NCBI RefSeq assembly: GCF_023554255.2
Contig: NZ_JAMJWD020000007.1
Location: 1-64,000, forward strand
DNA length: 64,000 nt
Direction: 5' to 3'
Origin: Phyllobacterium sp. 21LDTY02-6
GTDB lineage: Bacteria; Pseudomonadota; Alphaproteobacteria; Rhizobiales; Rhizobiaceae
The translations under genes and the position numbers were made by a program. Shown in pieces: positions 6,903 to 44,485 of the stretch (its first letter is position 1; every line of letters begins with the position of its first letter). The notes under the pieces are model-generated. The model was not told where the DNA came from. It ran no database searches and saw only the letters and a program-made list of their open reading frames with translations.

Positions 6903-7250
6903 CGTTGCTGCGCCCTTCGACAAGCTCAGGATGAGGGAGAGTAGAGTTTTGCAGGGTTCTAGTTCTGCAAGGTTTCAAACCATGGCTCCCTCCACTTCCG
7001 CCATCCATAATTTCCCTCATGCTGAGCCTGTCGAAGCACGCACGATGCTTTTGCAGCGCTCCAAAGAAGGATTGCACAAACGTTGCTGCGCCCTTCGACA
7101 GGCTCAGGATGAGGGGAAATAGAGTTTTGCAGGGAGGTCGTTCTGCGATCTCTCAACACCCCGCCAACGCCACAGAACTACCACCCCTGCCAACACCAAC
7201 CTCCCTCATGCTGAGCCAACTTCCCTCATGCTGACCTTGTCGAAGCACGC
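6903..7250. repeat. cluster of REP-like elements
   Basis: At least four copies of a short family in both orientations: CTTCGACAAGCTCAGGATGA at 6915-6934, the inverted form ending CTGAGCCTGTCGAAG at 7014-7036, CTTCGACAGGCTCAGGATGA at 7092-7111, and a compound inverted pair at 7201-7250. Two copies carry the same flanks, GTTGCTGCG before and TAGAGTTTTGCAGGG after. Diverged relatives lie at 3948-3972, 7821-7844, 50757-50775 and 50850-50877. Such elements are common intergenic repeats in Rhizobiales. No gene is seen in 6890-7296. Confidence 0.8.
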
Positions 7251-8923: not shown

Positions 8924-10432
<1,509 letters not shown>

Positions 10433-10436
10433 ACCG

Positions 10437-10865
10437 ATGGACCGCCCCGGCCTTGGCTGCGGCCTCGTCTTTCTGAAGGATGACCGCATCCTGCTGCTGC
10501 AGCGCCTGAAAAGCCCCGAAGCGGGCAGCTGGGGCATACCCGGCGGCAAGGTGGATTTCCTCGAACGGGCGGAAAACGCGGTGCGCCGCGAAGCGCTGGA
10601 AGAAACCGGTCTTCTTGCCGGCCCTGTCGAGCTACTCGGCCTGAGCGAACAGCTTTTTCATGAAGAACAGCAGCATTGGATCGGGATATTGTATCTGGCC
10701 GCGAGTTTCAGCGGCCAAGAAAGCCTGATGGAACCGGAAAAACATGGCGGCATCGGCTGGTTTCCGCTTGGCAACCTGCCTCCGAAGGTGACCCTGCCGA
10801 CGCTGCATGCGGTCGAACTGATCCGCAAGCGCGCCTATTTGCCCGCCCGCAAAGAGGCCTCGTAG
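10437..10865 (+). CDS. Nudix hydrolase
   Basis: A 142-residue Nudix hydrolase, starting four bases after the helicase stop and so probably co-transcribed. The complete Nudix box GX5EX7REUXEEXGU is visible as GGKVDFLERAENAVRREALEETGL-type spacing near residue 41 (GGK...E...RREALEETG), binding Mg2+ for nucleoside diphosphate cleavage. The overall shape resembles small (d)NTP/NUDT15-like pyrophosphatases, but the substrate is not evident. The ATG at 10437 has a poor Shine-Dalgarno, consistent with translational coupling. Its 3' end overlaps the convergent TfoX-like gene by 31 nt. Confidence 0.88.
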   Translation: MDRPGLGCGLVFLKDDRILLLQRLKSPEAGSWGIPGGKVDFLERAENAVRREALEETGLLAGPVELLGLSEQLFHEEQQHWIGILYLAASFSGQESLMEPEKHGGIGWFPLGNLPPKVTLPTLHAVELIRKRAYLPARKEAS

Positions 10866-11152
10866 GCGCGGCGCGCCCAATCGGTCATGATCTCCGGATC
10901 GTCGAATGCGTCCACCGGTACCGACCAATAGGGCATGTGGACCGAACGGCCCTTGCCTTCGTAATGCCATTGGCGGCACCCGGCCGCTTCGAATTCCGGC
11001 GCGGATAGCCTGTCTGCCTTGAGGAGGATTTCCTCGTCCACCTCGAGCGCTATGATCAGGCCCTGGTGATAGATGCCCTTGCCGCCGAACATGCGTTTGA
11101 TGACGACCGGCCCGAGGCCGGCGAAAAGATCGCGAATGGCGTCATTGTCCAT
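10835..11152 (-). CDS. TfoX/Sxy N-terminal domain protein
   Basis: A 105-residue protein consisting only of the TfoX N-terminal domain: IRDLFAGLGPVVIKRMFGGKGIYHQG at residues 6-31 is the family signature, and FEAAG...YWSVPVDAFDDPE the second half. In gammaproteobacteria TfoX/Sxy activates competence genes; single-domain forms in alphaproteobacteria have no established role. It starts 13 bp after the sufA stop on the same strand and is probably read through from it. It overlaps the 3' end of the convergent Nudix gene by 31 nt. Confidence 0.85.
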   Translation of the reverse strand: MDNDAIRDLFAGLGPVVIKRMFGGKGIYHQGLIIALEVDEEILLKADRLSAPEFEAAGCRQWHYEGKGRSVHMPYWSVPVDAFDDPEIMTDWARRAYEASLRAGK

Positions 11153-11165
11153 GACGCTGCGCCGG

Positions 11166-11540
11166 TCAGGAACCGGCAGCAGCCAGCGCTTCGGGGCGAG
11201 CCGGCGTCAGTTCGACGGATTCGCCGCAGCCGCAGGCCGATGTCTGGTTGGGATTGTTGAAGACGAAGCCGGTGCGCAGCGTCGTCGCTTCGAAATCCAT
11301 CGTCGTGCCAAGCAGATAGAGCACCGCTTCCGGCGCCACATAGACCCGGGCGCCATCGTGCTCGACGAGGTCATCCCCCGCCCGTGCCTCGGTGACGAGG
11401 TCGATCGTATATTCCATACCGGCGCAGCCGCCCTTCTTGACGCCCACGCGGATACCGAGCGCGCCTTCGCGCGTGTCGGTGATTTCATGGACACGCCGGG
11501 CTGCGGCTTCTGTTAGGTTGATGACAGAAAATCGACCCAT
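11166..11540 (-). CDS. sufA: HesB/IscA-family Fe-S cluster assembly protein (SufA-like A-type carrier)
   Basis: A 124-residue A-type carrier that accepts Fe-S clusters from SufBCD and delivers them to apoproteins. The three ligand cysteines are visible: Cys39 in KKGGCAGMEY and Cys103/Cys105 in SACGCGES. In related rhizobial genomes this gene directly follows sufT; here about 2.25 kb of accessory, repeat-rich DNA lies between them, so sufA may need its own promoter. A TfoX-like gene follows by 13 bp. Confidence 0.92.
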   Translation of the reverse strand: MGRFSVINLTEAAARRVHEITDTREGALGIRVGVKKGGCAGMEYTIDLVTEARAGDDLVEHDGARVYVAPEAVLYLLGTTMDFEATTLRTGFVFNNPNQTSACGCGESVELTPARPEALAAAGS

Positions 11541-11658
11541 TTTTCTTTTCTCATGTTCGAGACCGGTAATTCGTACTTTCTATAAGTAGTGTTATGCGTC
11601 CGTCACCGCAAGAGTTCAGACTGTGCAAGAGCAAACAAACCAAAGGTCAGGGCAAACC

Positions 11659-12432
11659 ATGAAACGCCGCCTTCCTGTTCTTTTGACCCCGCTTACCCTC
11701 GCGCTTACCTCCCCCTTGGGCTACCCCTTGGCCGCCCGCTTGGCCGCCCCCTTGGCGCTCCCTTTGGGGCTCGCGCTTACCGCCCCCCTGGGCTTCGCGC
11801 TTACCGTCCCCCTGGGCTTCGCGCTTGCCGTCCCCCTGGGCTTCGCCCGGCCGGCAATGGCACAGGAGCCCGGCGCCGCGCCGGCGAAGCCAGCCGAGAA
11901 GCCGGCAGCCGCCACACCGGCGCAGCAACCAGAAACGACGGCGCAGCAGCCTGACGCGAAGAGCGCAGCTCCGGCGGCCGAACCGAGCGCCGCCGAACAG
12001 AAGCCGACGCAGACACCGGCGGATTATACCGACAATCGCAGCACGCCCGATGCGCTGGTGCGCTCCTATTACAATGCCATCAACCGCCAGGAATATGCCC
12101 GGGCCTATGGTTATTACGAACCGGAAAGCGTGCCCCAGCCCTTTCCGCAGTTTCAGGCCGGATATGAAAACACCGTTTCCGTCGAGGTCCTGCTTGGCAA
12201 GGCCGAAGGCGAAGGCGCGGCGGGTTCGGTCTATTGGAGCCTGCCCATCGCGATCAAATCGACCTTGAAAGATGGCAAGACCAGCATATTCAATGGCTGC
12301 TACCGGCTGAAACTCGCCAATCCCGCCATTCAGGGCGTGCCTTTCGTGCCGCTATCGCTGATCGGCGGCACGCTGGAGAAATCGGAACAGCCCTTCGAGC
12401 AGAGCGTCCCCGAGGGTTGCGAAGCGCCCTGA
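11659..12432 (+). CDS. exported hypothetical protein with repeat-expanded signal peptide
   Basis: A 257-residue secreted protein of unknown function, opposite in orientation to the suf genes around it. Positive residues MKRR precede an exceptionally long hydrophobic stretch (residues 5-62) built from eight-residue units such as ALTAPLGF and ALTVPLGF, ending in a signal peptidase site AMA|QEP (after residue 68). The normal hydrophobic core is 10-15 residues. Residues 70-115 are an Ala/Pro/Gln-rich linker; the globular part follows (STPDALVRSYYNAINRQEYARAYGYY), somewhat like an NTF2-type fold, with two cysteines (NGCYR and PEGCEAP) that could pair. The ATG at 11659 has GTCAGGG upstream. Confidence 0.7.
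   Translation: MKRRLPVLLTPLTLALTSPLGYPLAARLAAPLALPLGLALTAPLGFALTVPLGFALAVPLGFARPAMAQEPGAAPAKPAEKPAAATPAQQPETTAQQPDAKSAAPAAEPSAAEQKPTQTPADYTDNRSTPDALVRSYYNAINRQEYARAYGYYEPESVPQPFPQFQAGYENTVSVEVLLGKAEGEGAAGSVYWSLPIAIKSTLKDGKTSIFNGCYRLKLANPAIQGVPFVPLSLIGGTLEKSEQPFEQSVPEGCEAP
11701..11844 (+). repeat. 24-bp tandem repeat inside a signal-peptide coding region
   Basis: Six consecutive 24-bp units in frame. Units at 11773-11796, 11797-11820 and 11821-11844 are nearly identical (ALTAPLGF, ALTVPLGF, ALAVPLGF); 11701-11724 is a clear fourth copy, and the intervening 11725-11772 is two diverged units (PLAARLAA- and PLALPLGL-type). Each unit adds eight hydrophobic residues to the signal sequence. Confidence 0.85.
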
Positions 12433-12445
12433 CCGGGCCAGCCAG

Positions 12446-12512
12446 CCCTGATCGCCCTTGATCGCCCTGATCGCCCCTTGATCGCCCTGACCGCCCTTGA
12501 TTGCCCTGGGCG
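12446..12512. repeat. 9-10-bp tandem repeat (CCCTTGATCG type)
   Basis: Seven units of CCCTGATCG / CCCTTGATCG / CCCTGACCG run from just after the stop codon of the exported gene to just before the stop of the convergent small membrane ORF. The spacing alternates between 9 and 11 bases. No hairpin is evident. Confidence 0.8.
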
Positions 12513-12517
12513 ACTTC

Positions 12518-12796
12518 TCAGCCCTGGCCGATGCACCAGGCCAGCATCGCCAGGCAGCAGGCAATGAACACCCAGACGACGGTCTTTGCCCGCGCCGTGG
12601 CAAGTTCGGCAAAGCTTTCAGCGGCAATGTCTTCGGCGATTCCCGCCATGAACGACCGGCCATGTGCCTGCGCCTCGGCTGCGGCCGGAAATTCCGCCGA
12701 GCAATGGAGATACCACGCGGCGGAAAGGAGCGCGAGAACCGCGCAAGCCGCAGCGACGACCGCAATCAGGTCAGCCAATGAAAAAGCGTACAACAA
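12518..12796 (-). CDS. putative small membrane protein, two predicted transmembrane helices
   Basis: A 92-residue open frame with two hydrophobic segments, ADLIAVVAAACAVLALLSAA (residues ~8-27) and TVVWVFIACCLAMLAWCIG (residues ~72-90), separated by an Ala/Glu-rich soluble stretch. I do not recognise a family. It would start at TTG (12796) with AGCGGAG about 11 bases upstream; no ATG is available. The membrane pattern and the convergent arrangement support a gene, but it lies in a tract full of tandem repeats and other frames are open, so it could be spurious. Confidence 0.45.
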   Translation of the reverse strand: MLYAFSLADLIAVVAAACAVLALLSAAWYLHCSAEFPAAAEAQAHGRSFMAGIAEDIAAESFAELATARAKTVVWVFIACCLAMLAWCIGQG

Positions 12797-12822
12797 TGGA
12801 ATGCTCCGCTAGCGGATGAAAT

Positions 12823-12897
12823 CGGCAGATTAAAATTCAGCAGGTCAAAATACGGTAGGTCAAAATACGGCAGGGCAAAATTCGGCAGGTCAAAATA
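12823..12897. repeat. 15-bp tandem repeat, five units
   Basis: Five exact-length units of CGGCAGGTCAAAATA (12823, 12838, 12853, 12868, 12883) with one to four substitutions each. Because 15 is a multiple of three, the minus strand reads as a pentapeptide-like series (FDLPY, FALPN), but that frame has no start signal. Confidence 0.85.
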
Positions 12898-12929
12898 CGG
12901 CATGTCCGGCGCGGGCGTGCCACTTGGCC

Positions 12930-13042
12930 ACGACAGTTTAGTCCCGCGACAGTTTAGTCCCGCGACAGTCTCGCCCCACAACAGTCTGGTTCCCCGACAG
13001 TTTTAGTCCCGCGACAGTCTGGTTCCACAACAGTGCCAACCC
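12930..13042. repeat. 16-bp tandem repeat, seven units
   Basis: Units of GCGACAGTTTAGTCCC and the variant ACAACAGTCTGGTTCC begin at 12930, 12946, 12962, 12978, 12994 (17 bp), 13011 and 13027. All keep the core ACAGT. The array starts 32 bp after the 15-bp array and its unit is unrelated to it. Confidence 0.85.
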
Positions 13043-13046
13043 GCGT

Positions 13047-13132
13047 CTTGGCGGGCTCACTTCCGTGGGACGCTCACTTTCTTGGGGCGCTCAGTTCCTT
13101 GGCGGGTTCACTTCGTTGGGCGGGTTCACTTG
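13047..13132. repeat. 16-18-bp tandem repeat, five units
   Basis: Units of the type CTTGGCGGGTTCACTTC begin at 13047, 13064, 13082, 13098 and 13115, each with the core GCTCACTT or GTTCACTT. The array follows the 16-bp array almost without a gap. Confidence 0.8.
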
Positions 13133-13214
13133 CCGCACCATGCTCGCCAGACACCCCCGAGAGCTCCACGGTAGCACCAGTTTTTCCCGACTTCGGTAGT
13201 TTCAGCCCGCCGGT

Positions 13215-13409
13215 CTAGAAATAGCAGATCGACATGCCGAGGATGGCGGCGGCGCAAAGCACCAGCGTCATCATCGATGTTGTCGCGCGGCGCTCGCGGC
13301 GGCTTTCGCAATGGGCGGCAATGCGGTTCAGGGAAATTCTCCCATCGGATGGGCCGGAAGCACGATGCTGAACGGGCCGTTCCGATGGGATCGCAAGTGA
13401 TAAAATCAT
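13215..13409 (-). CDS. possible small single-pass membrane peptide
   Basis: Open frame of 64 codons ending in a hydrophobic C-terminus, MMTLVLCAAAILGMSICYF, after an Arg/Glu-rich segment (CESRRERRATT). The nominal ATG at 13409 has no ribosome site; GGGAG lies in front of a non-ATG codon halfway in, so a shorter product is possible. The positive-inside, one-helix layout is what small membrane proteins look like, but length and context give little support. Confidence 0.25.
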   Translation of the reverse strand: MILSLAIPSERPVQHRASGPSDGRISLNRIAAHCESRRERRATTSMMTLVLCAAAILGMSICYF

Positions 13410-13500
13410 TTTAACACCATAGTCAGCGTTAGAAATTTACAGTTATATTCGCGGTAGAGAGGCAATAAATTTCGTAATTCTCGTTCCGGCAGACTTAAAC

Positions 13501-13580
13501 TTGCCATCTGCCTGTTTAACTTGACATCTGCCTGTCAAACCTGACATCTGCCTGTTTAACTTGGCATCTGCTTGCCGGAA
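13501..13580. repeat. 20-bp tandem repeat, four units
   Basis: Units at 13501, 13521, 13541 and 13561, of the type TTGACATCTGCCTGTTTAAC, each exactly 20 bp, with a partial unit just upstream (13484-13500). Each unit contains TTGACA-like and TTTAAC-like blocks, so chance promoter matches occur in it. Confidence 0.85.
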
Positions 13581-13793
13581 CCTGCATCAGCAGCGTGGTT
13601 GTGTTATGCCGAAGTTCATTGCGATACACAATCCAGACTTTAGTAGCATACGTTCCGCCCGCCGCGTCCCCGTGGCGCCCCCTCCCCAAGTCCCAATGGA
13701 ACCCGGCCCTGGCGGCAGGCGGCAAGATACGAATCCGGCCACCCTTTCGAGCAGCCGGACAAAATATTCATTCATGAGAAGGAATGTGGCGCG

Positions 13794-14249
13794 TCAGTAC
13801 CAGCCGACGGCGACCTGCGCTTCTTCGGACATGCGGTCCGGCGTCCAGGGCGGATCGAACGTCATGGTGACGTCGACGAAGCTCACGCCTTCGACGGTAC
13901 CGACGGCATCCTGTACCCAGCCGGGCATTTCGCCGGCGACCGGGCAGCCCGGCGCGGTCAGCGTCATCTCGATCTTCACCGAGCGGTCGTCCTCGATGTC
14001 GATCTTGTAGACAAGGCCGAGTTCGTAGATGTCGGCGGGAATTTCGGGATCATAGACCGTCTTCAGGGCGGCGATGATATCGTCGGTCATTCTCGCCAGC
14101 TCGTCGGCGGGAATAGCCGAAACGGGCCCATCTTCAACAGACTTGCCTTCGACTGGCTTGCCTTCGAGGGACTTGCCTTCGCCCTGCCCGGTGTCCGTGG
14201 CCATTGCGGCCTCCGGTGTTTCGAGAGTCTCTGCCTTGTCGGTCATCAT
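13794..14249 (-). CDS. sufT: SUF system Fe-S assembly protein SufT (DUF59/MIP18 family)
   Basis: A 151-residue DUF59 protein of the suf operon, thought to help cluster maturation or transfer. The DUF59 core spans residues ~50-150: MTDDIIAALKTVYDPEIPAD, IYELGLVYKI, the conserved cysteine in LTAPGCPVAGEMP, and TFDPPWTPDRMSEEA. The N-terminal ~45 residues are a low-complexity extension with a repeated five-residue unit (GKSLE, GKPVE, GKSVE). The start at 14249 is two bases after the sufS stop, with GGGTGA upstream; an ATG at 14246 is equally possible. Confidence 0.92.
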   Translation of the reverse strand: MMTDKAETLETPEAAMATDTGQGEGKSLEGKPVEGKSVEDGPVSAIPADELARMTDDIIAALKTVYDPEIPADIYELGLVYKIDIEDDRSVKIEMTLTAPGCPVAGEMPGWVQDAVGTVEGVSFVDVTMTFDPPWTPDRMSEEAQVAVGWY

Positions 14250-14251
14250 TG

Positions 14252-15493
14252 TCACCCGAAGAATTTCCGCGCTTTTTCCAGCGCATCGGCGAGAGCGTCG
14301 ATCTCGGCCCTCGTATTGTACATCGCCAGCGATGCCCGACATGTGGAGGTCACGCCGAACCGTTTCAAGAGCGGCTGGGCGCAATGGGTGCCGGCGCGGA
14401 CGGCGACGCCGGCGCGGTCGATCACCATTGACACGTCATGGGCATGGATTCCCTGCAGTTCGAATGAGATGATGGAGCCCTTGTCCCTGGCCTCGCCGAA
14501 GATGCGCAGCGAATTGATCTCGCGCAGTCGGCGATGGGCATAGTCGCGAAGATCTTCCTCATGCGCGAGGATCGCGGCCCGGCCGATACGCTCGACATAT
14601 TCGATCGCGGCGCCAAGCCCGATCGCCTGCGCGATCGGCGGCGTACCCGCCTCGAAGCGGTGCGGAGGATGATTGTAGGTGACGATATCCTCCGTCACCT
14701 CCTCGATCATCTCGCCGCCGCCCTGGAACGGACGCATGGCCTCCAGCATGTGCTTGCGGCCATAGAGGACACCGATGCCGGACGGGCCATAGAGCTTGTG
14801 CCCGGTGAAGATATACCAGTCGCAGCCGAGGTCCTGCACGTCGACCGGCAGGTGCACCGCGCCCTGGCTGCCATCGACGAGCACCGGAATGCCGCGGGCA
14901 TGGGCGATGCGCACGATCTCCTTGATCGGCGTGACGGTGCCGAGCACGTTGGACATGTGGGTTATCGCCACGAGCTTGGTGCGCTCCGTCAGGCGCTGCT
15001 CGAATTCCTCGATGTGGAAGGCGCCATCCTCGTCCACCGGCACCCAGACGAGCCGGGCGCCCTGGCGCTCGCGGATGAAATGCCACGGCACGATGTTGGA
15101 ATGGTGCTCCATGATCGAAAGGACGATCTCGTCGCCCTCGCCGATCTCAGGCATGCCATAGCCATAGGCGACGGTATTGATCGCCTCGGTGGCCGATTTC
15201 GTAAAGACGATCTCGTCGACGGAAGCGGCGTTCAGATATTTCCTGACGATCCCGCGCGCCTTCTCATAGGCGTCGGTGGTCGCATTGGAAAGAAAGTGCA
15301 GGCCCCGGTGCACATTGGCATATTCATGGCCGTAGGTATTGGCGACGGCGTCTATGACGGCCTGCGGCTTCTGCGCCGAGGCGCCGCTGTCGAGATAGAC
15401 GAGCGGCTTGCCGTGGACCTCGCGCGACAGGATCGGAAAATCCTGCCGCACCCGATCCACATCATAGGAACCCTGCATCAGTTTCGTGTCCAT
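14252..15493 (-). CDS. sufS: cysteine desulfurase SufS (group II)
   Basis: PLP-dependent cysteine desulfurase that supplies sulfur for SufBCD. The 413 residues show the PLP lysine in TGHKLYGPSGIGVLYG, the PLP-contacting EHHSNIVPW, and the catalytic cysteine in RAGTHCAQPLL near residue 365, with the short loop typical of group II (SufS) enzymes. It lies between sufD (37 bp upstream) and sufT. A second, group I-type desulfurase heads the locus (19421-20596), so two sulfur donors are available. No sufE gene is in the window. Confidence 0.96.
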   Translation of the reverse strand: MDTKLMQGSYDVDRVRQDFPILSREVHGKPLVYLDSGASAQKPQAVIDAVANTYGHEYANVHRGLHFLSNATTDAYEKARGIVRKYLNAASVDEIVFTKSATEAINTVAYGYGMPEIGEGDEIVLSIMEHHSNIVPWHFIRERQGARLVWVPVDEDGAFHIEEFEQRLTERTKLVAITHMSNVLGTVTPIKEIVRIAHARGIPVLVDGSQGAVHLPVDVQDLGCDWYIFTGHKLYGPSGIGVLYGRKHMLEAMRPFQGGGEMIEEVTEDIVTYNHPPHRFEAGTPPIAQAIGLGAAIEYVERIGRAAILAHEEDLRDYAHRRLREINSLRIFGEARDKGSIISFELQGIHAHDVSMVIDRAGVAVRAGTHCAQPLLKRFGVTSTCRASLAMYNTRAEIDALADALEKARKFFG

Positions 15494-15530
15494 GATAACC
15501 GCACTTTCTGTGCCCGAAAGCCTCGTCCGT

Positions 15531-16802
15531 TCAGATGTGAGCGGCGAGCCACTTTTCGAGTATGGCTTCCAATGCCTCGACGAGCTGCTCGTCTTCGAGT
15601 TCCTCGATGATCTCGGCGACGAAAGCCTTGATCAGCAGGCCCCTCGCCTCGTTCTCGGGAATGCCGCGCGCCTTGAGATAGAACAGGTGGTTGGCGTCGA
15701 TCTCCGTCACCGTCGCCCCATGGCCGCAGGCAACGTCGTCGGCGAAAATCTCGAGCTCGGGCTTGGCGTCGAATTCGCCATCGTCCGACAGCAGCAATGT
15801 GTTGCAGGCCATGCGGGCATCGGTCTTCTGGGCGATCCTGTTGACCTTGATCTGGCCCTGGAAAACGCCGCGGGCGCGGTCGGTGACGACATTGCGCACC
15901 ACCTGCACCGACGTGGTGTTCTCGACCAGATGGCCGAGCGTCATGGTAACGTCCGTATGGCTGTCGCCCGCGAGGAGATTGACGCCGCGCAGCTGGAAAT
16001 CCGAGCCTTCGCCCTTCACCAGCACGTGCACCTCCTGGCGGATGAGCTTGCCGCCGGCATTGACCACATAGAGCGTCAGCTTCGCATTGGTGCCGAGCGT
16101 TGCGATGAACTGCGCCAGCTGCGCCGCATCCGGCCCGTGCTCGCGCAGGATGATCCAGGTGATCTCGGCGTCGTCGGCAATGGCGACATTGCTGACGCTG
16201 GTCGAGAAACCCTCGCCCTCGCCGCCGGACTGGCGCTCGATGATCGTCGCCTTCACGCCCTTGCCGAACTGGACCGGAAAGCGCACATGGCTCTGCCCGC
16301 GCAGTTGCGTGTTCTGCAGCTCGACCGGCGCCGCAAGTTCCGTGCCTTCGGCGAAGACCAGGCTCCAGCCATCGGTCACATAGGCCGCATTGATCTGGCC
16401 TATGGCGTCGTCGCCATCGCGAATGGCGAGATCGCGGATGAGCGAGCCATTGGCCAGCTGCTCCGAAACCTTGGCGAAGCTGACGCCTTCGACCTGCGGC
16501 GCGGCGAGCGCCACGCCATTGGAGACGGTCGCTACCGCCGAACCCGGGATCACCGCGTTGAGCGCGTTGCTTCCCGCCGCCGGGTCGAAGCCGGGGATGG
16601 CGCGCAGCAGCGTGCGCAGGTCCGTGTAGTGCCAGGCCTCGACGCGGCGCGAGGGCAGGCCCCGCTGCTTCAGCGCTTCAACGGCGTTGTCGCGGGCACT
16701 GATGACCTCGCCGTCGCCCGGCAATTCGCCCATGCGTTCGGCGAATGTGTCGACCAGAGCGGCTTCTGCCGCCGTAGGCTGACGTCCTGTATGAACATTC
16801 AT
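15531..16802 (-). CDS. sufD: Fe-S cluster assembly protein SufD
   Basis: Component of the SufBC2D scaffold complex. 423 residues with the SufBD-type right-handed beta-helix core in the middle and the conserved C-terminal segment CNTLLLSDDGEFDAKPELEI, followed by CGHGATV and FYLKARGIPENEARGLLI. The ATG at 16802 is preceded by GAGGA, which overlaps the sufC stop region (sufC ends at 16813), indicating translational coupling. An upstream in-frame extension to 16856 lies inside sufC and is not used. Confidence 0.95.
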   Translation of the reverse strand: MNVHTGRQPTAAEAALVDTFAERMGELPGDGEVISARDNAVEALKQRGLPSRRVEAWHYTDLRTLLRAIPGFDPAAGSNALNAVIPGSAVATVSNGVALAAPQVEGVSFAKVSEQLANGSLIRDLAIRDGDDAIGQINAAYVTDGWSLVFAEGTELAAPVELQNTQLRGQSHVRFPVQFGKGVKATIIERQSGGEGEGFSTSVSNVAIADDAEITWIILREHGPDAAQLAQFIATLGTNAKLTLYVVNAGGKLIRQEVHVLVKGEGSDFQLRGVNLLAGDSHTDVTMTLGHLVENTTSVQVVRNVVTDRARGVFQGQIKVNRIAQKTDARMACNTLLLSDDGEFDAKPELEIFADDVACGHGATVTEIDANHLFYLKARGIPENEARGLLIKAFVAEIIEELEDEQLVEALEAILEKWLAAHI

Positions 16803-16812
16803 CGAATTATCC

Positions 16813-17568
16813 TCAGGCTGCCTCGCCGATGATGTCGGCATAACCATTTTCTTCAAGGTGAAGCGCCAGGTTCTTGTCGCCGGACTTGATCACCTGGCCC
16901 TTGTAGAGAACATGGACCGTATCGGGCACGATGTAATCGAGCAGGCGCTGGTAATGGGTGATGACGATGACCGCGCGATCGGGCGAACGCAGCGCATTGA
17001 CGCCGTCGGCGACGATCTTGAGCGCATCGATGTCGAGGCCGGAATCGGTCTCGTCGAGAACGCACAGCTTCGGCTCGAGCAGCTTCATCTGCAGGATCTC
17101 GGCGCGCTTCTTCTCACCGCCGGAGAAGCCGACATTCAGCGGCCGCTTCAGCATGTTGATGTCCATGTCGAGCGAGCCTGCCGCGGTCTTGACGCGCGCG
17201 ATGAAGTCCGAAACCTTCAGCGGCTCCTCGCCGCGGGCCTTGCGCTGCGAATTCAGCGCCACCTTCAGGAATTCCATCGTGGCGACGCCGGGGATTTCCA
17301 TCGGATACTGGAAGGCGAGGAAGATGCCCTTGGCGGCGCGCTCGGCAGGATCGAGCTCGAGGATGGATTCGCCATTGTAGAGAATGTCGCCTTCGGTGAC
17401 CTCGTAATCCTCGCGGCCGGCGAGAATGTAGGAAAGGGTCGACTTGCCGGAACCGTTCGGCCCCATGATGGCGGCGACTTCGCCGGCATTGACGGTGAGA
17501 TTGAGGCCGCGGATGATCTCCGTGTCCGTATCCGCGATCTTCGCGTGAAGGTTTCTGATTTCCAGCAT
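16813..17568 (-). CDS. sufC: Fe-S cluster assembly ATPase SufC
   Basis: ABC-type ATPase of the SufBCD scaffold; its ATP hydrolysis drives opening of the SufB-SufD interface. 251 residues: Walker A GPNGSGKST (~39-47), Q-loop AFQYPMEIPG, ABC signature FSGGEKKRAEI, Walker B LCVLDETDSGLD and the H-loop VITHYQRLL. The start ATG at 17568 has AAGGGTAAG upstream and gives the family start MLEIRNLHA. A 157-bp gap separates it from sufB. Confidence 0.97.
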   Translation of the reverse strand: MLEIRNLHAKIADTDTEIIRGLNLTVNAGEVAAIMGPNGSGKSTLSYILAGREDYEVTEGDILYNGESILELDPAERAAKGIFLAFQYPMEIPGVATMEFLKVALNSQRKARGEEPLKVSDFIARVKTAAGSLDMDINMLKRPLNVGFSGGEKKRAEILQMKLLEPKLCVLDETDSGLDIDALKIVADGVNALRSPDRAVIVITHYQRLLDYIVPDTVHVLYKGQVIKSGDKNLALHLEENGYADIIGEAA

Positions 17569-17725
17569 GTTCTTACCCTTTGACGTCCCGGGATCGACCG
17601 CAGCGATCCGCATAATGTTTAAGTCGCGTCGATCGCAGGCTTGGCGATCGGAAATGATGATCTGCCCGGCGCGGCGGACAGGGAGCGGCGAAAGGGGATG
17701 AGCCCGCGCCGCCCGTGGCCGGCCG

Positions 17726-19255
17726 CTATCCGACGCTTCCTTCCAGGCTGATGCCGATGAGCTTCTGCGCCTCGACGGCGAACTCCATCGGCAGTTCCTG
17801 GATGACTTCCTTGACGAAACCATTGACGATCAGCGCAATGGCCTCTTCCTCGGGAATGCCGCGCTGCATCACGTAGAACAGCGCATCCTCGGAGATTTTC
17901 GAAGTCGTCGCCTCATGTTCGAACTGGGCGGTGGCGTTCTTCGCCTCGATGTAAGGCACCGTATGCGCGCCGCAATCATTGCCGATCAGCAGCGAGTCGC
18001 ACTGGGTGAAGTTGCGCGCATTCTCCGCCTTGCGGTGCGCCGAAACCTGGCCGCGATAGGTATTGTTCGACTTGCCGGCCGAAATACCCTTGGAGATGAT
18101 GCGGCTGGAGGTGTTCTTGCCCAGATGCAGCATCTTGGTGCCGCTGTCGATCTGCTGATGGCCGTTGGAAACGGCAATCGAGTAGAACTCGCCGCGGGAA
18201 TTGTCGCCGCGCAGGATCACCGACGGATATTTCCAGGTGATCGCCGAACCGGTTTCCACCTGCGTCCACGAGATCTTCGAGTTCTTGCCCCGGCAGTCGC
18301 CGCGCTTGGTGACGAAATTGTAGATGCCGCCCTTGCCCTCGGCATCGCCGGGGAACCAGTTCTGGACGGTCGAATATTTGATCTCCGCATCGTCGAGCGC
18401 GATCAGCTCGACCACCGCCGCATGCAGCTGGTTCTCGTCGCGTTGCGGCGCCGTGCAGCCTTCGAGATAGGACACGTAGGCGCCCTCCTCGGCAATGATC
18501 AGCGTGCGCTCGAACTGGCCGGTGTCACGCTCATTGATGCGGAAATAGGTGGAAAGCTCCATCGGGCAACGCACGCCCTTCGGCACGTAGACGAAGGAAC
18601 CATCGGTGAACACCGCCGAATTCAGCGTCGCGTAGAAATTGTCCGACACCGGAACGACCGATGCCAGGTATTTCTGCACGAGCTCGGGATATTCGCGGAT
18701 CGCCTCGGATATCGAGCAGAATATGACGCCGGCCTTCGCCAGCTCCGCCTTGAAGGTGGTGACGACGGACACGCTGTCGAACACGGCATCCACGGCGACG
18801 CGTCCGGACTTGTAGACATTGTCGCTGGCTTCCTCGTCGCCATCGGACGGGCTCGGCTCGCCGGCCTTGCGCACGCCGGCCAGAATCTCCTGCTCCTTGA
18901 GCGGAATGCCGAGCTTTTCATAGGTGCGCAGCAGCTCCGGATCGACATCGGCAAGCGACGAGGGTCCCGTCTGGTTCTTCGGCCCGGCGAAATACACCAT
19001 GTCCTGGAAGTCGATCTTCGGATAATCGACGCGCGCCCAGGTGGGCTCTTCCATGGTCAGCCAGCGCTCATAGGCCTTCAGCCGCCATTCCAGCATCCAT
19101 TCCGGCTCGTTCTTCTTGGCCGAGATGAAGCGGATGATATCTTCATTGAGGCCCTTCGGCGCCTTATCCATCTCGATAAGGGTCTCAAAGCCATACTTGT
19201 ATTGGTCCACGTCAAGCGTACGGACCCGGTCAATGGTTTCCTGCACTGCAGGCAT
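17726..19255 (-). CDS. sufB: Fe-S cluster assembly protein SufB
   Basis: Scaffold subunit on which the nascent cluster is built. 509 residues, longer than E. coli SufB as is usual in alphaproteobacteria. Recognisable segments are [41 protein letters not shown], the beta-helix core ending in [20 protein letters not shown], and [16 protein letters not shown] with its conserved cysteine, then the C-terminal [27 protein letters not shown] about seven bases upstream supports the ATG at 19255. Confidence 0.97.
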
Positions 19256-19343
19256 TGGCGTTCTCCATCCTCGCGGGGTTCAAGGTCCCGCAGTTGCAAA
19301 CGTCAAGGCAGTATGTCGTCTTGAATATTTGCCTATAATGTAG

Positions 19344-19357
19344 TGTGCAACTGCACA
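19344..19357. promoter_or_regulatory. short palindrome upstream of sufB
   Basis: TGTGCA-AC-TGCACA (19344-19357) is a perfect 6-bp-arm dyad about 90-100 bp upstream of the sufB start, in the 165-bp gap after the first desulfurase gene. On the minus strand a TTGCAC inside it and a TATTCA 17 bases later could be a weak promoter, so the dyad would overlap the -35 box. The binding factor is not known. Confidence 0.35.
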
Positions 19358-19420
19358 TTTTAACACCGGTTGCACCGGATTTTTTACAAAGGCGCCGGCC
19401 ATTGGCCGATCGCCCCGAAT

Positions 19421-20596
19421 TCATGCGGCACTTGCGGCTGCCGCGGCCGAGCGATCGCGGCGCGAGACGATCTGCGCCAGCGCGTCGAGAAACAGTTTCA
19501 TCTCCGCTTCCGGCGTGTCGGGCGCGGTCGATACCCGCAGCCCGCCCGTGCCCTTGCCGAAACCCATGGCGGCCAGTACATGGCTGGGGCCGACCTTGCC
19601 CGAAGAACAGGCCGAGCCAGCCGATAGCGCAATTCCGGCCAGATCGAAAGCGATTTGAACGGTTTCCGCCTTCAAATCGCGCAAGCCGAACATCGTCGTG
19701 TTCGGCAGTCTTTCCGCTGCCGCGCCAAAGACAATCGCATCGGGCGCAATTTCGCGGATCGCCAGTTCCAGATTGCGGTGCCTGTCGGCAGGCCAGCCGC
19801 CGGAAGCGAGCAGGTCGCGCGCGCTGCGCGCCGCCGCGCCAAAACCTGCGATCAACGGCAGGGCCTCGGTGCCGGCGCGATGGCCCTTCTCCTGGCCTCC
19901 GCCGCGAACGAGCGCGTCGGGCATGACCAGATCGGAACCGGCAATGATGGCGCCGACGCCCTTGGGACCGCCGATCTTGTGCGAGGAAAGAATCAGGTAA
20001 TCGCCGTAACCCTCTGATATATCCAGAGGAATTCGGCCCGCCGCCTGAACGGCATCGACGATGAACAGGCCGCCGAACTCCTTGACGACGGCGCCGATGC
20101 GGCCGACGGGCTGCACCACGCCGGTTTCGTTGTTCGCCGCCTGCACTGCCACCAGCGGCAGGCCCGCACTGCGGTCATGGGCGCCGAGCAACGCGCGCAA
20201 TCGCTCGATATCGATGATGCCATCCTGATCGACCGGGACGGTTTCGATCTGATCGGCCGGAAACTGGCCGCCGGCCAGAATGCAGGGATGCTCGCTGGCC
20301 GAGACATAGAGCCTGGAAAGGCGCAAGGGCGCCCTGCCCATGGTGAAATGCGGCGTCAGGAGGGTTGAAGCAGCTTCGGTCGCACCCGATGTAAAGACCA
20401 CATGATCGGCTTTCGCATTGACCAGCGCGGCGACATCGCGCCGGGCCGCTTCGAGAATAGCCTTGGCGGCGCGGCCTTCCTGATGAACCGAGGATGGATT
20501 GCCGACCTGCTGCAACGCGTCGATCACAGCCTGCCGCGCCGCCGGAAGCAGCGGTGCGCTGGCATTGTAGTCGAGATAGGCGCGGTTGAGGCCCAT
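19421..20596 (-). CDS. cysteine desulfurase, NifS/IscS-like (group I)
   Basis: First gene of the suf locus: a 391-residue PLP enzyme converting cysteine to alanine plus enzyme-bound persulfide. The N-terminal YLDYNASAPLLPAAR, the PLP lysine in SSHKIGGPKGVGAI, the RAGTEALPLIAGF segment and the active-site loop SAGSACSSGKVGPSHVL (catalytic Cys near residue 330) place it in group I with NifS/IscS. ATG 20596 gives the conserved start; the frame extends to 20638 without a ribosome site. It precedes sufB by 165 bp, and its own upstream region carries the Irr-like box. Confidence 0.93.
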   Translation of the reverse strand: MGLNRAYLDYNASAPLLPAARQAVIDALQQVGNPSSVHQEGRAAKAILEAARRDVAALVNAKADHVVFTSGATEAASTLLTPHFTMGRAPLRLSRLYVSASEHPCILAGGQFPADQIETVPVDQDGIIDIERLRALLGAHDRSAGLPLVAVQAANNETGVVQPVGRIGAVVKEFGGLFIVDAVQAAGRIPLDISEGYGDYLILSSHKIGGPKGVGAIIAGSDLVMPDALVRGGGQEKGHRAGTEALPLIAGFGAAARSARDLLASGGWPADRHRNLELAIREIAPDAIVFGAAAERLPNTTMFGLRDLKAETVQIAFDLAGIALSAGSACSSGKVGPSHVLAAMGFGKGTGGLRVSTAPDTPEAEMKLFLDALAQIVSRRDRSAAAAASAA

Positions 20597-34647: not shown

Positions 34648-35333
34648 CACTTTGCCGGTGCGGCCCTAGCGGACCAGTTTCCCCTCAGCGTATCCCTGTG
34701 TACCAGATCATCGGCGCGCTTGCACGGCAAAGACGATCCGCCATCCACTACCAATAGGTAAGGAAGCATAGTTAATATTGTCTTGCGCAACACCCATATG
34801 GCCCAAGGATCGACGTGAATATCAAGAAGGTCTTGTCAGAAGGCGACACACCTCCTAAAAGCAGAGTTGGATTACCCTCTGCCCCTTGGAATCGGGCGCT
34901 TTGATGTCACGGCTAAGGACCGAGCGACTATAAGGCCCGAATGGGAGCGGCGATGGCGAACAGCCTCGACGGTGTAACCGAAAAGAATTTGGCGCTGGTG
35001 GACAGGGATTGTCGATAGCGCTTTTTGCGAACGGCGGATGGCGCAGACAAGGCGCATCAAGCCAGCCCCTCTGGGGTGTTAACAGTGTCGGCACAGCTGG
35101 AAAGCGTGCCATTGATGAGGTCGTTTCGTCAGGAACAGGAATGTTTTTAACAGATAGGATTTTTACCGGCCTGCAAGCCGCGGCTGCCCAAAGGCAGCTT
35201 CGCGCGACGCCGTATCTGTCTGTTTCTGCGAACTTTAATGTATCCGGCAAATGTGAAGATGCGGCGCCAGGCCCCCAGCGGGGTCCCTGGCTGTTCCGCA
35301 TGGAGCGCATTTCAGCCGGGGAGAAGAATCATA
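34648..35333 (+). other. long leader/intergenic region of rne
   Basis: About 690 bases between the divergent amidase gene and rne without a credible gene. Long 5' leaders that let RNase E regulate its own mRNA are known for rne. Here a T-rich patch is at 35141-35162 (GTTTTTAACAGATAGGATTT) and a GC-rich hairpin at 35266-35291 (GCCAGG with CCTGGC, CCCC with GGGG inside) lies 43 bases before the start codon. I could not assign the promoter. Confidence 0.5.
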
Positions 35334-38333
35334 ATGTCGGACAAAATGCTAATCGACGCCTCCCACCAGGAGGAAACACGGGTTGTCGTGGTTCGCGGCA
35401 ATCGAATTGAAGAGTTTGATTTCGAATCTGAACACAAGAAACAAATCAAAGGCAATATCTACCTGGCGCGGGTCACGCGCGTCGAGCCGTCGCTCCAGGC
35501 GGCCTTCGTAGAATATGGCGGCAATCGCCATGGCTTTCTGGCGTTCAGCGAAATTCACCCCGATTACTACCAGATCCCGGTTGCTGACCGGCAGGCGCTG
35601 ATCGAGGCGGAAGCCGCGGCGGCCAGCCAGGAAGAGGATCACGAGGACGGCGAGCCGAGAACGCGCGAGCGCAGCGGCGACCGCGACAAGCGCAATCGGC
35701 GCCGCGGACGGCGTGGATCGCGCCAGGGCGACGAATCGACGAAGCTCGAAGCCTCCGACGAGGAAGGCGCAGCCAATGTCGAAGGCGAGGAAGCCGCGAC
35801 CGGCGCCGATGCTGGTAACGATATTGGCAGCGAAAACACTGACAACGACAATCCGTCCGGCGACGACAATGGCGGCAGCCAGTCCATGGCGGCGGCCATC
35901 GATGCCGATGTGGTTTCCGAGGCAGTCTCGCTCGACCAGGACGACGAGACGGACGAGGACGACGCCAAGGCCCCTGCCCGCAAGCCTTCCCGCGCAAGAA
36001 AGAGCCGTTCCAACGACAGGGACGACGACGCGCAGGACGAACTCGACGAGGTCGAATCCGTCGGGGCGGAAGATGCGATGGAGGAAGTTCCGACGCATCA
36101 GCGTTTCCAGCGCCGCCACTACAATATCCAGGACGTGATCAAGCGCCGGCAGATATTGCTGGTACAGGTGGTCAAGGAAGAGCGCGGCAACAAGGGCGCG
36201 GCTCTCACCACCTATCTTTCGCTTGCCGGACGGTATTCCGTGCTCATGCCCAATACGGCGCGCGGCGGCGGCATTTCCCGCAAGATCACCAATGTCCAGG
36301 ACCGCAAGCGGCTGAAGGACATCGTCAAGGATCTCGAAGTGCCGAAAGGCATGGGGGTGATCCTGCGTACCGCCGGCGCCAACCGGACCAAGCCGGAGGT
36401 CAAGCGCGACTATGAATATCTGATGCGCCTGTGGGAGAACGTCCGCAATCTGACGCTCTCATCGACCGCGCCGACCCTCGTCTACGAGGAAGGCAGCCTC
36501 ATCAAGCGCTCCATCCGCGACCTCTACAACAAGGATATCACCGAGATCCAGGTTGCCGGCGAGAACGGATATCGCGAGGCCAAGGATTTCATGCGCATGC
36601 TCATGCCGAGCCATGCGAAGGTGGTGCAGCCCTATCGCGACATGACGCCGATCTTCGCCCGCAACGGCATCGAGGCGCAGCTCGACCGCATGCTGCAGCC
36701 GCAGGTGACGCTCAAATCCGGCGGCTACATCATCATCAACCAGACCGAAGCGCTGGTTGCCATCGACGTCAATTCCGGCCGCTCGACCCGCGAACATTCG
36801 ATCGAGGACACGGCGCTGCAGACCAATCTCGAAGCAGCGGAGGAAATCGCCCGCCAGCTGCGCCTGCGCGATCTCGCCGGGCTGATCGTCATCGACTTCA
36901 TCGACATGGAGGAGAACAGGAACAACCGCGCCGTCGAGAAGCGGATGAAGGAATGCCTGAAGGACGATCGCGCCCGCATCCAGGTCGGCCGCATCTCGCA
37001 TTTCGGCCTGCTGGAAATGTCGCGCCAGCGCATCCGGGCCAGCGTGCTCGAAAGCACGACGCAGGTCTGCTCCGTCTGCGGCGGCACCGGCCATGTCCGT
37101 TCCGCCTCGTCCATCGCGCTGCATGTGATGCGGTCGATCGAGGAATATCTGCTGCGCCATTCGCAGAACAACATCATCGTGCGCACGACCGTGCCGACGG
37201 CGCTTTACGTTCTGAACCACAAGCGCCAGAACCTCGCCGATCTGGAGGCCCGCTTCGGCCTGACGATCAGCATCGAGGCCGATGACAGCGTCGGCGCGCA
37301 GCATTTCGCCATCGACAAGGGTTCGGTGGCGCTTGGTCCCATCGTGCCGCTGCAGGATACGCTCCCCGTCGGCATTTCCGATGATTACGACGATAATGAT
37401 CCGATCGTCGAAGAGATCGACGACGAGGCCGACGACGTTTCGGCGGAAGCGCCTAAGACCATCGATGGCGACGACAGCCGCAAGCGCAAGCGCAAGCGGC
37501 GGCGGCGCGGCGGCCGCGACCGGCAGGAGAATGCCGGTGCCGAACAGCGCCAGCCTGCCGTGCGTGAAGACATTGCCGAGGGCGAAGGCGAAGGCGAGGC
37601 TCCGGGCGAGGACGCCGCTGCGGCCGCGGCACGCGAGGAAGAATATCGCAAGAAGCGCCGGCGTGGTCGGCGCGGCGGCCGCAAGAACAAGCGCTTCGAC
37701 GACGAGAGCGCGGCAAAGGCAGTGCCCGATGCGGAACCGGTCTTCGTGACCATTCCCCTGCCCGATTTCGCCAAGGCGAAACAGGCCGGCGTCACCGATG
37801 TGATCGCCGAGGCACCGGTCGCGCCGCAGGAAGCCGCGCCGCAGGAGGCCGGGCCGCAGGCAGCTGCGCCTCTGGTCGAAGCCGAAGCTGAGGTCGAAGC
37901 ACCCAAGGCCCGCAAGGCGCCGGCCAAGCGCAAGTCGCGGGCAAAGGCTGCGGCAGAACCCGCCGATACCGTCGCTGCCGATGCCGTGGTTGCGGACAGC
38001 GTGGCCGAGGAGAGCGTAGCTCCCGCGGCGGAGGAAGCACCGGCGAAGCCAAAGCGTGCTCCGCGCAAATCGACCAAGAAGGCAGCCCCTGAGGCGAGCG
38101 AAGCCGAAGCGACCAGCGCTCCCGCCGAGGTGACGGAAACCGCCGCCCCGGCGCCAGAAACGCCGGAAGCCGAGACTCCGGAAGCCGAGACTCCGGCAGT
38201 TGAGACGCCAGCAGCCGAGACGCCGGCGGAACCGGCCGAGCCGGCAAAGCCTGTCGTCACATCGACGAGCAAGGCCGCCGAGGGCGCACCGGCGCCGAAG
38301 CGCGGCTGGTGGCAGAAGAAGGGCTTCTTCTGA
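35334..38333 (+). CDS. rne: ribonuclease E
   Basis: Endoribonuclease that starts mRNA decay and matures rRNA and tRNA. 999 residues. The S1 domain (GNIYLARVTRVEPSLQAAFV...) is split by a ~155-residue acidic/arginine-rich insert (residues ~95-250) and resumes at RRQILLVQVVKEERGNKGA, an alphaproteobacterial hallmark. The catalytic DNase I-like region carries the two metal aspartates (VAIDVNSGRST near residue 477, IVIDFIDM near 518), and the zinc-link CSVCGGTGH near 580 holds the tetramer. Beyond ~680 comes a disordered degradosome scaffold with Arg-rich blocks (RKRKRKRRRRGGRDR) and a TPEAE repeat, ending KRGWWQKKGFF. GGGGAGA supports the ATG at 35334. Confidence 0.96.
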   Translation: MSDKMLIDASHQEETRVVVVRGNRIEEFDFESEHKKQIKGNIYLARVTRVEPSLQAAFVEYGGNRHGFLAFSEIHPDYYQIPVADRQALIEAEAAAASQEEDHEDGEPRTRERSGDRDKRNRRRGRRGSRQGDESTKLEASDEEGAANVEGEEAATGADAGNDIGSENTDNDNPSGDDNGGSQSMAAAIDADVVSEAVSLDQDDETDEDDAKAPARKPSRARKSRSNDRDDDAQDELDEVESVGAEDAMEEVPTHQRFQRRHYNIQDVIKRRQILLVQVVKEERGNKGAALTTYLSLAGRYSVLMPNTARGGGISRKITNVQDRKRLKDIVKDLEVPKGMGVILRTAGANRTKPEVKRDYEYLMRLWENVRNLTLSSTAPTLVYEEGSLIKRSIRDLYNKDITEIQVAGENGYREAKDFMRMLMPSHAKVVQPYRDMTPIFARNGIEAQLDRMLQPQVTLKSGGYIIINQTEALVAIDVNSGRSTREHSIEDTALQTNLEAAEEIARQLRLRDLAGLIVIDFIDMEENRNNRAVEKRMKECLKDDRARIQVGRISHFGLLEMSRQRIRASVLESTTQVCSVCGGTGHVRSASSIALHVMRSIEEYLLRHSQNNIIVRTTVPTALYVLNHKRQNLADLEARFGLTISIEADDSVGAQHFAIDKGSVALGPIVPLQDTLPVGISDDYDDNDPIVEEIDDEADDVSAEAPKTIDGDDSRKRKRKRRRRGGRDRQENAGAEQRQPAVREDIAEGEGEGEAPGEDAAAAAAREEEYRKKRRRGRRGGRKNKRFDDESAAKAVPDAEPVFVTIPLPDFAKAKQAGVTDVIAEAPVAPQEAAPQEAGPQAAAPLVEAEAEVEAPKARKAPAKRKSRAKAAAEPADTVAADAVVADSVAEESVAPAAEEAPAKPKRAPRKSTKKAAPEASEAEATSAPAEVTETAAPAPETPEAETPEAETPAVETPAAETPAEPAEPAKPVVTSTSKAAEGAPAPKRGWWQKKGFF
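38160..38234 (+). repeat. 15-bp tandem repeat in the rne 3' region
   Basis: Five in-frame 15-bp units starting at 38160, 38175, 38190, 38205 and 38220 encode TPEAE, TPEAE, TPAVE, TPAAE and TPAEP in the disordered RNase E tail. The first two units differ by a single base. Confidence 0.85.
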
Positions 38334-44326: not shown

Positions 44327-44485
44327 GTGGGCAATGTGCCCGCCTCCCGTCTAATGTCAGGTGCGGGCATTCGTGCCCGCCTCCCATCCAATGTCAGGTG
44401 CGGGCACTCGTGCCCGCCGGGCATCTGTCGTCAGGTGCGGGCACTCGTGCCCGCCCCGGTCAGCTATTGTCAGGCGCGGGAACGT
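44327..44485. repeat. array of palindromic GCGGGCA-loop-TGCCCGC hairpins
   Basis: Three near-identical units with GTCAGGT before a hairpin: GCGGGCA TTCG TGCCCGC at 44363-44380, and with loop CTCG at 44400-44417 and 44437-44454. A weaker copy (GTGGGCAATGTGCCCGC) is at 44327-44343 and a truncated one (GTCAGGCGCGGGAA) at 44469-44482. Unit spacing is 37 bp. They lie between convergent genes; the last unit forms the 3' end of the DUF2155 coding sequence. No T-runs follow. Confidence 0.85.

Follow-up and report, generated by a model that had tools for sequence, protein, structure and literature searches.

Seven different tandem arrays lie within 2.5 kb, between and inside suf-type iron-sulfur assembly genes, in the window analysed here, which is the first 64 kb (64,000 nucleotides) of contig C10 in a genome of 4,615,711 bases and 12 contigs. 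Its most probable origin is recurrent tandem duplication of short stretches at the site itself, shaped by selection, in an array-prone genome. To our knowledge it is uncommon for several unrelated arrays to be clustered in bacteria; this cluster is striking, but of a known kind.

The array cluster and its genes

The gene order across the interval is sufA-like, sig, two putative small open reading frames (ORFs), sufT-like and sufS-like, with sig transcribed rightwards and all of the others leftwards. Apart from the sufA-like and sufT-like families, the suf names, sufS-like included, are those that we take the translations to indicate. The genes are as follows, with relatives given by their genome handles where they need to be told apart.

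11166–11540, − strand: sufA-like gene (PF01521), matched in 20/20 genus genomes
11659–12432, + strand: sig, a secreted-protein gene with a predicted leader, an Ala/Pro-rich linker and a C-terminal domain, present in 20/20 genus genomes
12518–12796, − strand: putative small membrane ORF of 92 aa, uncertain, with a weak match to a spacer ORF of G011
13218–13412, − strand: putative small ORF of 64 aa with a hydrophobic C terminus, uncertain, resembling by eye spacer ORFs of G001 and G003
13794–14246, − strand: sufT-like gene (PF01883), its N-terminal part lengthened by an array
14252–15493, − strand: sufS-like gene, at 88–91% identity in 19/19 congeners

The status of the two small ORFs is doubtful. 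The 92-aa ORF shares 34% identity over 73 residues with the G011 spacer ORF (E 8e-6, in a single comparison), and tblastn searches of related loci with either ORF gave zero matches at E 1e-3. A hexamer heuristic called neither of them and favoured an overlapping + strand frame over the 92-aa ORF. Small hydrophobic ORFs are present in the spacers of several congeners, and five of these align mutually. A Pfam search returned no family for the sig protein or for either small ORF.

The arrays identified by TRF are:

11702–11846, + strand: 24-bp array with a 12-bp substructure, in the sig leader; the unit reads PLGFALTV
12445–12508, no strand: 10/19-bp array, directly past the sig stop codon
12819–12906, no strand: 15-bp array
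12928–13034, no strand: 16-bp array with a 49-bp higher-order repeat
13055–13120, no strand: 17-bp array
13498–13571, no strand: 20-bp array, within an element (13484–13581) bounded by a 9-bp inverted repeat
14132–14181, − strand: seventh array, 15 bp, in the sufT-like N-terminus, about EGKSLEGKPVEGKSVE

The six arrays of the initial annotation were thus all recovered, with ends agreeing within about ten bases. The first array is represented by two non-overlapping TRF rows because its main unit of 24 bp carries a 12-bp substructure, and the cluster is therefore counted below either as eight rows or, with these two merged, as seven arrays. Between 11560 and 14250 the real sequence gives 13 TRF rows of score at least 50 (overlapping rows counted), compared to a total of 2 over 300 dinucleotide shuffles. 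Laid out copy by copy, the units stand directly head to tail without unique spacers, and with unit lengths in the range of about 9–100 bp and occurrence above chance the arrays are minisatellites. They are imperfect, with 75–94% matches in TRF and copies that differ from one another in the layout, and as the units have diverged the arrays are not demonstrably young or active. The units had been described as unrelated to each other, which is accurate for most of them; a comparison of the eight consensus units in all 28 pairs shows a likeness in two, 12 bp with 17 bp (1/100 shuffles) and 12 bp with 10 bp (2/100), which is weak after 28 tests. A common seed motif resembling CCTTGGG was considered on the strength of these two pairs, and the similarity was taken as chance.

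Congeners and the genome background

The interval was initially described as splitting an operon, and it does so in this genome, but sig sits between sufT and sufA in 19/19 congeners, with the order sufA-sig-sufT-sufS kept throughout. In G022, from another genus of the family, sufT adjoins sufA without sig, and a sig relative lies on another contig. The spacer between sig and sufT is about 1.36 kb in this genome, compared to 3–951 bp at the corresponding site in the 19 congeners, and spacer arrays of score at least 50 are absent from all 19 by TRF; with the cutoff lowered to 30, the congeneric spacer rows peak at scores of 31–33 (G016, G003 and G015). The only congeneric arrays that score at least 50 in the interval are repeats in the sig linkers of G011 and G015. 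The matched 10-kb loci of the 19 congeners together contain 4 arrays, compared to 8 rows in window positions 9500–19500.

The array excess is largely genome-wide. The 55 stretches sampled from this genome (1,009,039 bp) contain 67 non-overlapping arrays. A home-made hexamer heuristic, used to separate coding from non-coding sequence, places 27 of them in 109,845 bp of non-coding DNA; the corresponding counts are 2 in 104,578 bp for six sampled congeners (G001, G003, G005, G007, G014 and G017; p 1.5e-6) and 3 in 50,204 bp for G022 (p 0.006). Raising the cut to score 60 and 2.5 copies leaves 15 arrays here, 1 in the six congeners and 1 in G022. Spacers of this genome are thus about 13-fold richer in arrays than those of the six congeners and about 4-fold richer than those of G022; the comparison with the sister clade (G004, G011, G012, G015 and G016) is at the suf locus only. 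GC content alone was rejected as a cause, G022 having a GC content of 64% and just 3 spacer arrays in 50 kb. A REP-like repeat, GCTCAGCATGAGGGAGG, is dispersed in the sampled spacers and sometimes forms short arrays (window 7196–7234; L031:717–758; L126:7197–7250; L139:10332–10588); dropping four REP-like arrays leaves 23 spacer arrays, and the excess over the congeners persists.

The genome is array-rich, but the cluster exceeds the genome's own rate: none of 2000 simulations, drawn from the rates observed in its coding and non-coding DNA and the sampled gene layout, gave 8 rows in 2,471 bp, and 2/2000 reached the count of seven arrays in that length. This local excess is real, and it rests partly on the coding arrays. 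The spacer arrays alone, 5 in 1361 bp, are equalled in 90/2000 simulations, which is marginal, and much of the cluster is therefore the tail of a genome-wide trait.

Several other repeats in this genome were noted. A smaller case of a similar kind is present at L135:7540–7629, where two spacer arrays with 14-bp and 13-bp units adjoin, and repeats of 42, 90 and 381 bp together with a 14-bp array fall within 3 kb at L046:801–3779, near the start of contig C7. The top-scoring array of the window (177) is a non-coding 37-bp unit repeated 3.5 times at 44329–44455, and period-15 and period-18 repeats (37820–37870, 37911–37946 and 38160–38226) occur near the 3′ end of a 1031-aa ORF at 35238–38333. 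Spacers flanked by convergent genes tend modestly towards more arrays, with 8 in 14,201 bp as opposed to 14 in 67,699 bp for the tandem and divergent classes; spacers at the edges of stretches hold 5 in 27,945 bp.

Origin of the arrays

The periods of the arrays follow the coding status of the DNA in which they lie. Within the window, periods (of at least 7) are divisible by three in 10/10 coding arrays and in 1/7 non-coding arrays; in the background the pattern is weaker, with 28/37 coding and 10/27 non-coding arrays divisible by three, such that 9/37 coding arrays break the rule. Relaxed selection had been proposed for this interval, and the distribution of arrays in the spacer agrees with it: outside the two putative ORFs 399/887 bases are array, compared to 0 array bases inside them.

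In the duplication process that we favour, small direct repeats would allow a strand to slip or the template to be switched, providing the seed from which independent minisatellites are born in place, and out-of-register copying would then enlarge them, with the 49-bp higher-order unit representing a block step. The seed step finds support in the 10-bp array, which starts just past the sig stop codon at a point where the stop region is itself unit-like; GCCCTGACCG at the stop (12426–12435) is similar to the unit of the 10/19-bp array. Small variable segments in E. coli are likewise attributed to replication slippage between short repeats (PMC2884548). The host lineage would gain or keep spacer arrays at about 13 times the frequency seen in the six sampled congeners, and selection would tolerate any period in spacers and admit multiples of three alone in genes, in tolerant segments. 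The suf interval may be the densest found because a long, weakly constrained stretch adjoins two genes with tolerant N-termini, which might also be why it exceeds the rate of the genome. From the distribution among congeners we infer birth of the arrays here, not loss elsewhere. Loss of MutS, MutL, Ku or RecJ was considered as a cause and rejected, as all are found in 20/20 genus genomes, the host included, a result that concerns their presence and not their function.

The arrays across the 2.5 kb may instead have been seeded by a local event of mutation or at a fragile site, for instance when breaks were repaired in an error-prone way or the template was switched repeatedly, a reading that we hold only tentatively. 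A local mutational process was part of the initial proposal, and that part is borne out insofar as arrays are more frequent than the genome's own rates for coding and non-coding DNA predict; they also occur in the two genes that flank the spacer, and not in the spacer alone. The 20-bp array (13484–13581) would fit such an event too, since it is bounded by the 9-bp inverted repeat GTTCCGGCA / TGCCGGAAC and folds strongly (z −3.97, with 0/200 shuffles as good), but the six other arrays fold no better than shuffles, and a search for inverted repeats returned six pairs, which show no general association with the arrays. DNA secondary structure was accordingly rejected as a shared trigger, the 20-bp array alone beating shuffles. 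The marginal excess of the spacer arrays taken alone also counts against a local event, as do the substitutions, which are not locally elevated: on a fixed tree the host branch accounts for 0.10 of total tree length in sig, 0.12 in sufT and 0.11 in a TfoX-like gene, compared to 0.32 in sufA and 0.24 in sufS. General local hypermutation was rejected on the same grounds. It is improbable that the arrays are functional and selected, with repeat number tuning the export of the sig protein or with the spacer repeats acting as regulatory or binding sites. The 24-bp array does extend the predicted leader in frame with its AxA-Q end retained, and the good folding of the 20-bp array could be read in the same way, but the spacer arrays are missing in 19/19 congeners, the units have diverged, promoter-like and terminator-like sites are at the shuffle level, and Rfam gave no match at E up to 1 across 11500–14300. 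Having no Rfam match and units that stand head to tail, the arrays do not resemble structured RNA or CRISPR-like repeats either.

Delivery of the arrays by an inserted or mobile segment, the other element of the initial proposal, is very improbable. The spacer is the longest among those compared, and it aligns with congeneric spacers over nothing beyond 21 bp (with G016), but the gene order is conserved in 19/19 congeners, the spacer at this same site is variable in length, and there is no second copy in the genome (best non-self match E 0.035). The spacer thus neither breaks up a gene order found unbroken in relatives nor has copies elsewhere, as a mobile element would, and an insertion of the spacer would leave unexplained the two arrays within the conserved genes on either side. 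Because the spacer cannot be aligned to those of the congeners, it is its position, rather than its sequence, that indicates its age, and non-array DNA could have been inserted into it long ago. An assembly artefact is the least credible of these explanations: the locus lies 11.7 kb from a contig end, but the copies differ, both coding arrays are in frame, and the contig continues for 346 kb.

Known systems and the enlarged leader of sig

Among the literature examined, the nearest described case is that of the Borg tandem repeats. The Borg report (Schoelmerich et al. 2023, PMC9879509) describes, in one case, four kinds of array in about 7 kb, seldom common to close relatives, with perfect, A-enriched units whose lengths in ORFs are divisible by three. 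The cluster resembles these in having unrelated units in both spacers and ORFs, and in that arrays can begin within the end of a gene (PMC9879509). It also shares the restriction of unit lengths to multiples of three in ORFs with free lengths in spacers, a rule that the cluster follows and that the genome background follows more weakly. However, Borgs are archaeal extrachromosomal elements, whereas the arrays here have diverged units and lie on a bacterial chromosome-type contig, and the A-enrichment described for Borgs is absent, with an A content of 0.206 in the spacer arrays compared to 0.223 in the rest of the spacer (+ strand). It is unlikely that array birth of a Borg-like kind operates here. 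In such a process some machinery or repair defect, acting throughout the genome and with a local focus, would turn unconstrained sequence, in spacers or in tolerant coding segments, into minisatellites, and would account for both the roughly threefold longer predicted signal peptide and the lengthened SufT N-terminus at this one locus.

Bacterial minisatellites (VNTRs) are similar in that the cluster likewise consists of short-unit tandem arrays, compared here with one genome per species. There is also a likeness to dispersed repeats of the REP/BIME type, in that these are short spacer repeats and arrays are at times formed by the REP-like repeat of the host genome; they differ in that the spacer units of the cluster are not dispersed through the genome, as judged from a search with the spacer and not with the sig and sufT arrays.

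The cluster documents compactly which places in a bacterial genome allow new tandem arrays to form and persist. Within it, spacers carry any period, the predicted signal peptide and a protein N-terminus carry periods of three, and conserved domains carry none. Congeners share the gene order but not the arrays, which makes the lineage well suited to seeking a genetic cause of array birth.

Both coding arrays lengthen the proteins in which they lie. The SufT-like protein has 150 residues, compared to 131–139 in the 19 congeners, with the difference located at the 15-bp array. The predicted sig leader has 68 residues and ends in AMA-Q, its extra length supplied in frame by the 24-bp array, and it is 23 residues long, about three times shorter, in the ten congeners that fit an AxA-QE rule; the remaining nine miss this rule, and their leaders look short by eye. 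These lengths are set by applying the rule to the sequence, and the signal peptide itself is a prediction. An array inside a bacterial signal peptide goes unmentioned in the titles and abstract openings among the literature matches listed, and this minisatellite-enlarged leader provides a concrete case for how export tolerates repeat number.

Relatives of sig are present in 68/151 family genomes searched, and a search with its conserved part returned ten named loci, nine from Phyllobacterium and one from a 'Rhizobiales bacterium', the genus here being very probably Phyllobacterium. Models of the conserved domain, built from 11 sequences, had a mean pLDDT of 72.6 for the best of five, a moderate confidence, and 39.0 for the worst. 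A fold search with the domain model gave mostly NTF2-like chains as its best matches, and since none has an E value of 0.001 or better, an NTF2-like fold for the C-terminal domain of sig is possible and no firmer than that. The linker past the leader carries 18-bp repeats in G011 (score 85) and G015 (score 63), a different array in another lineage.
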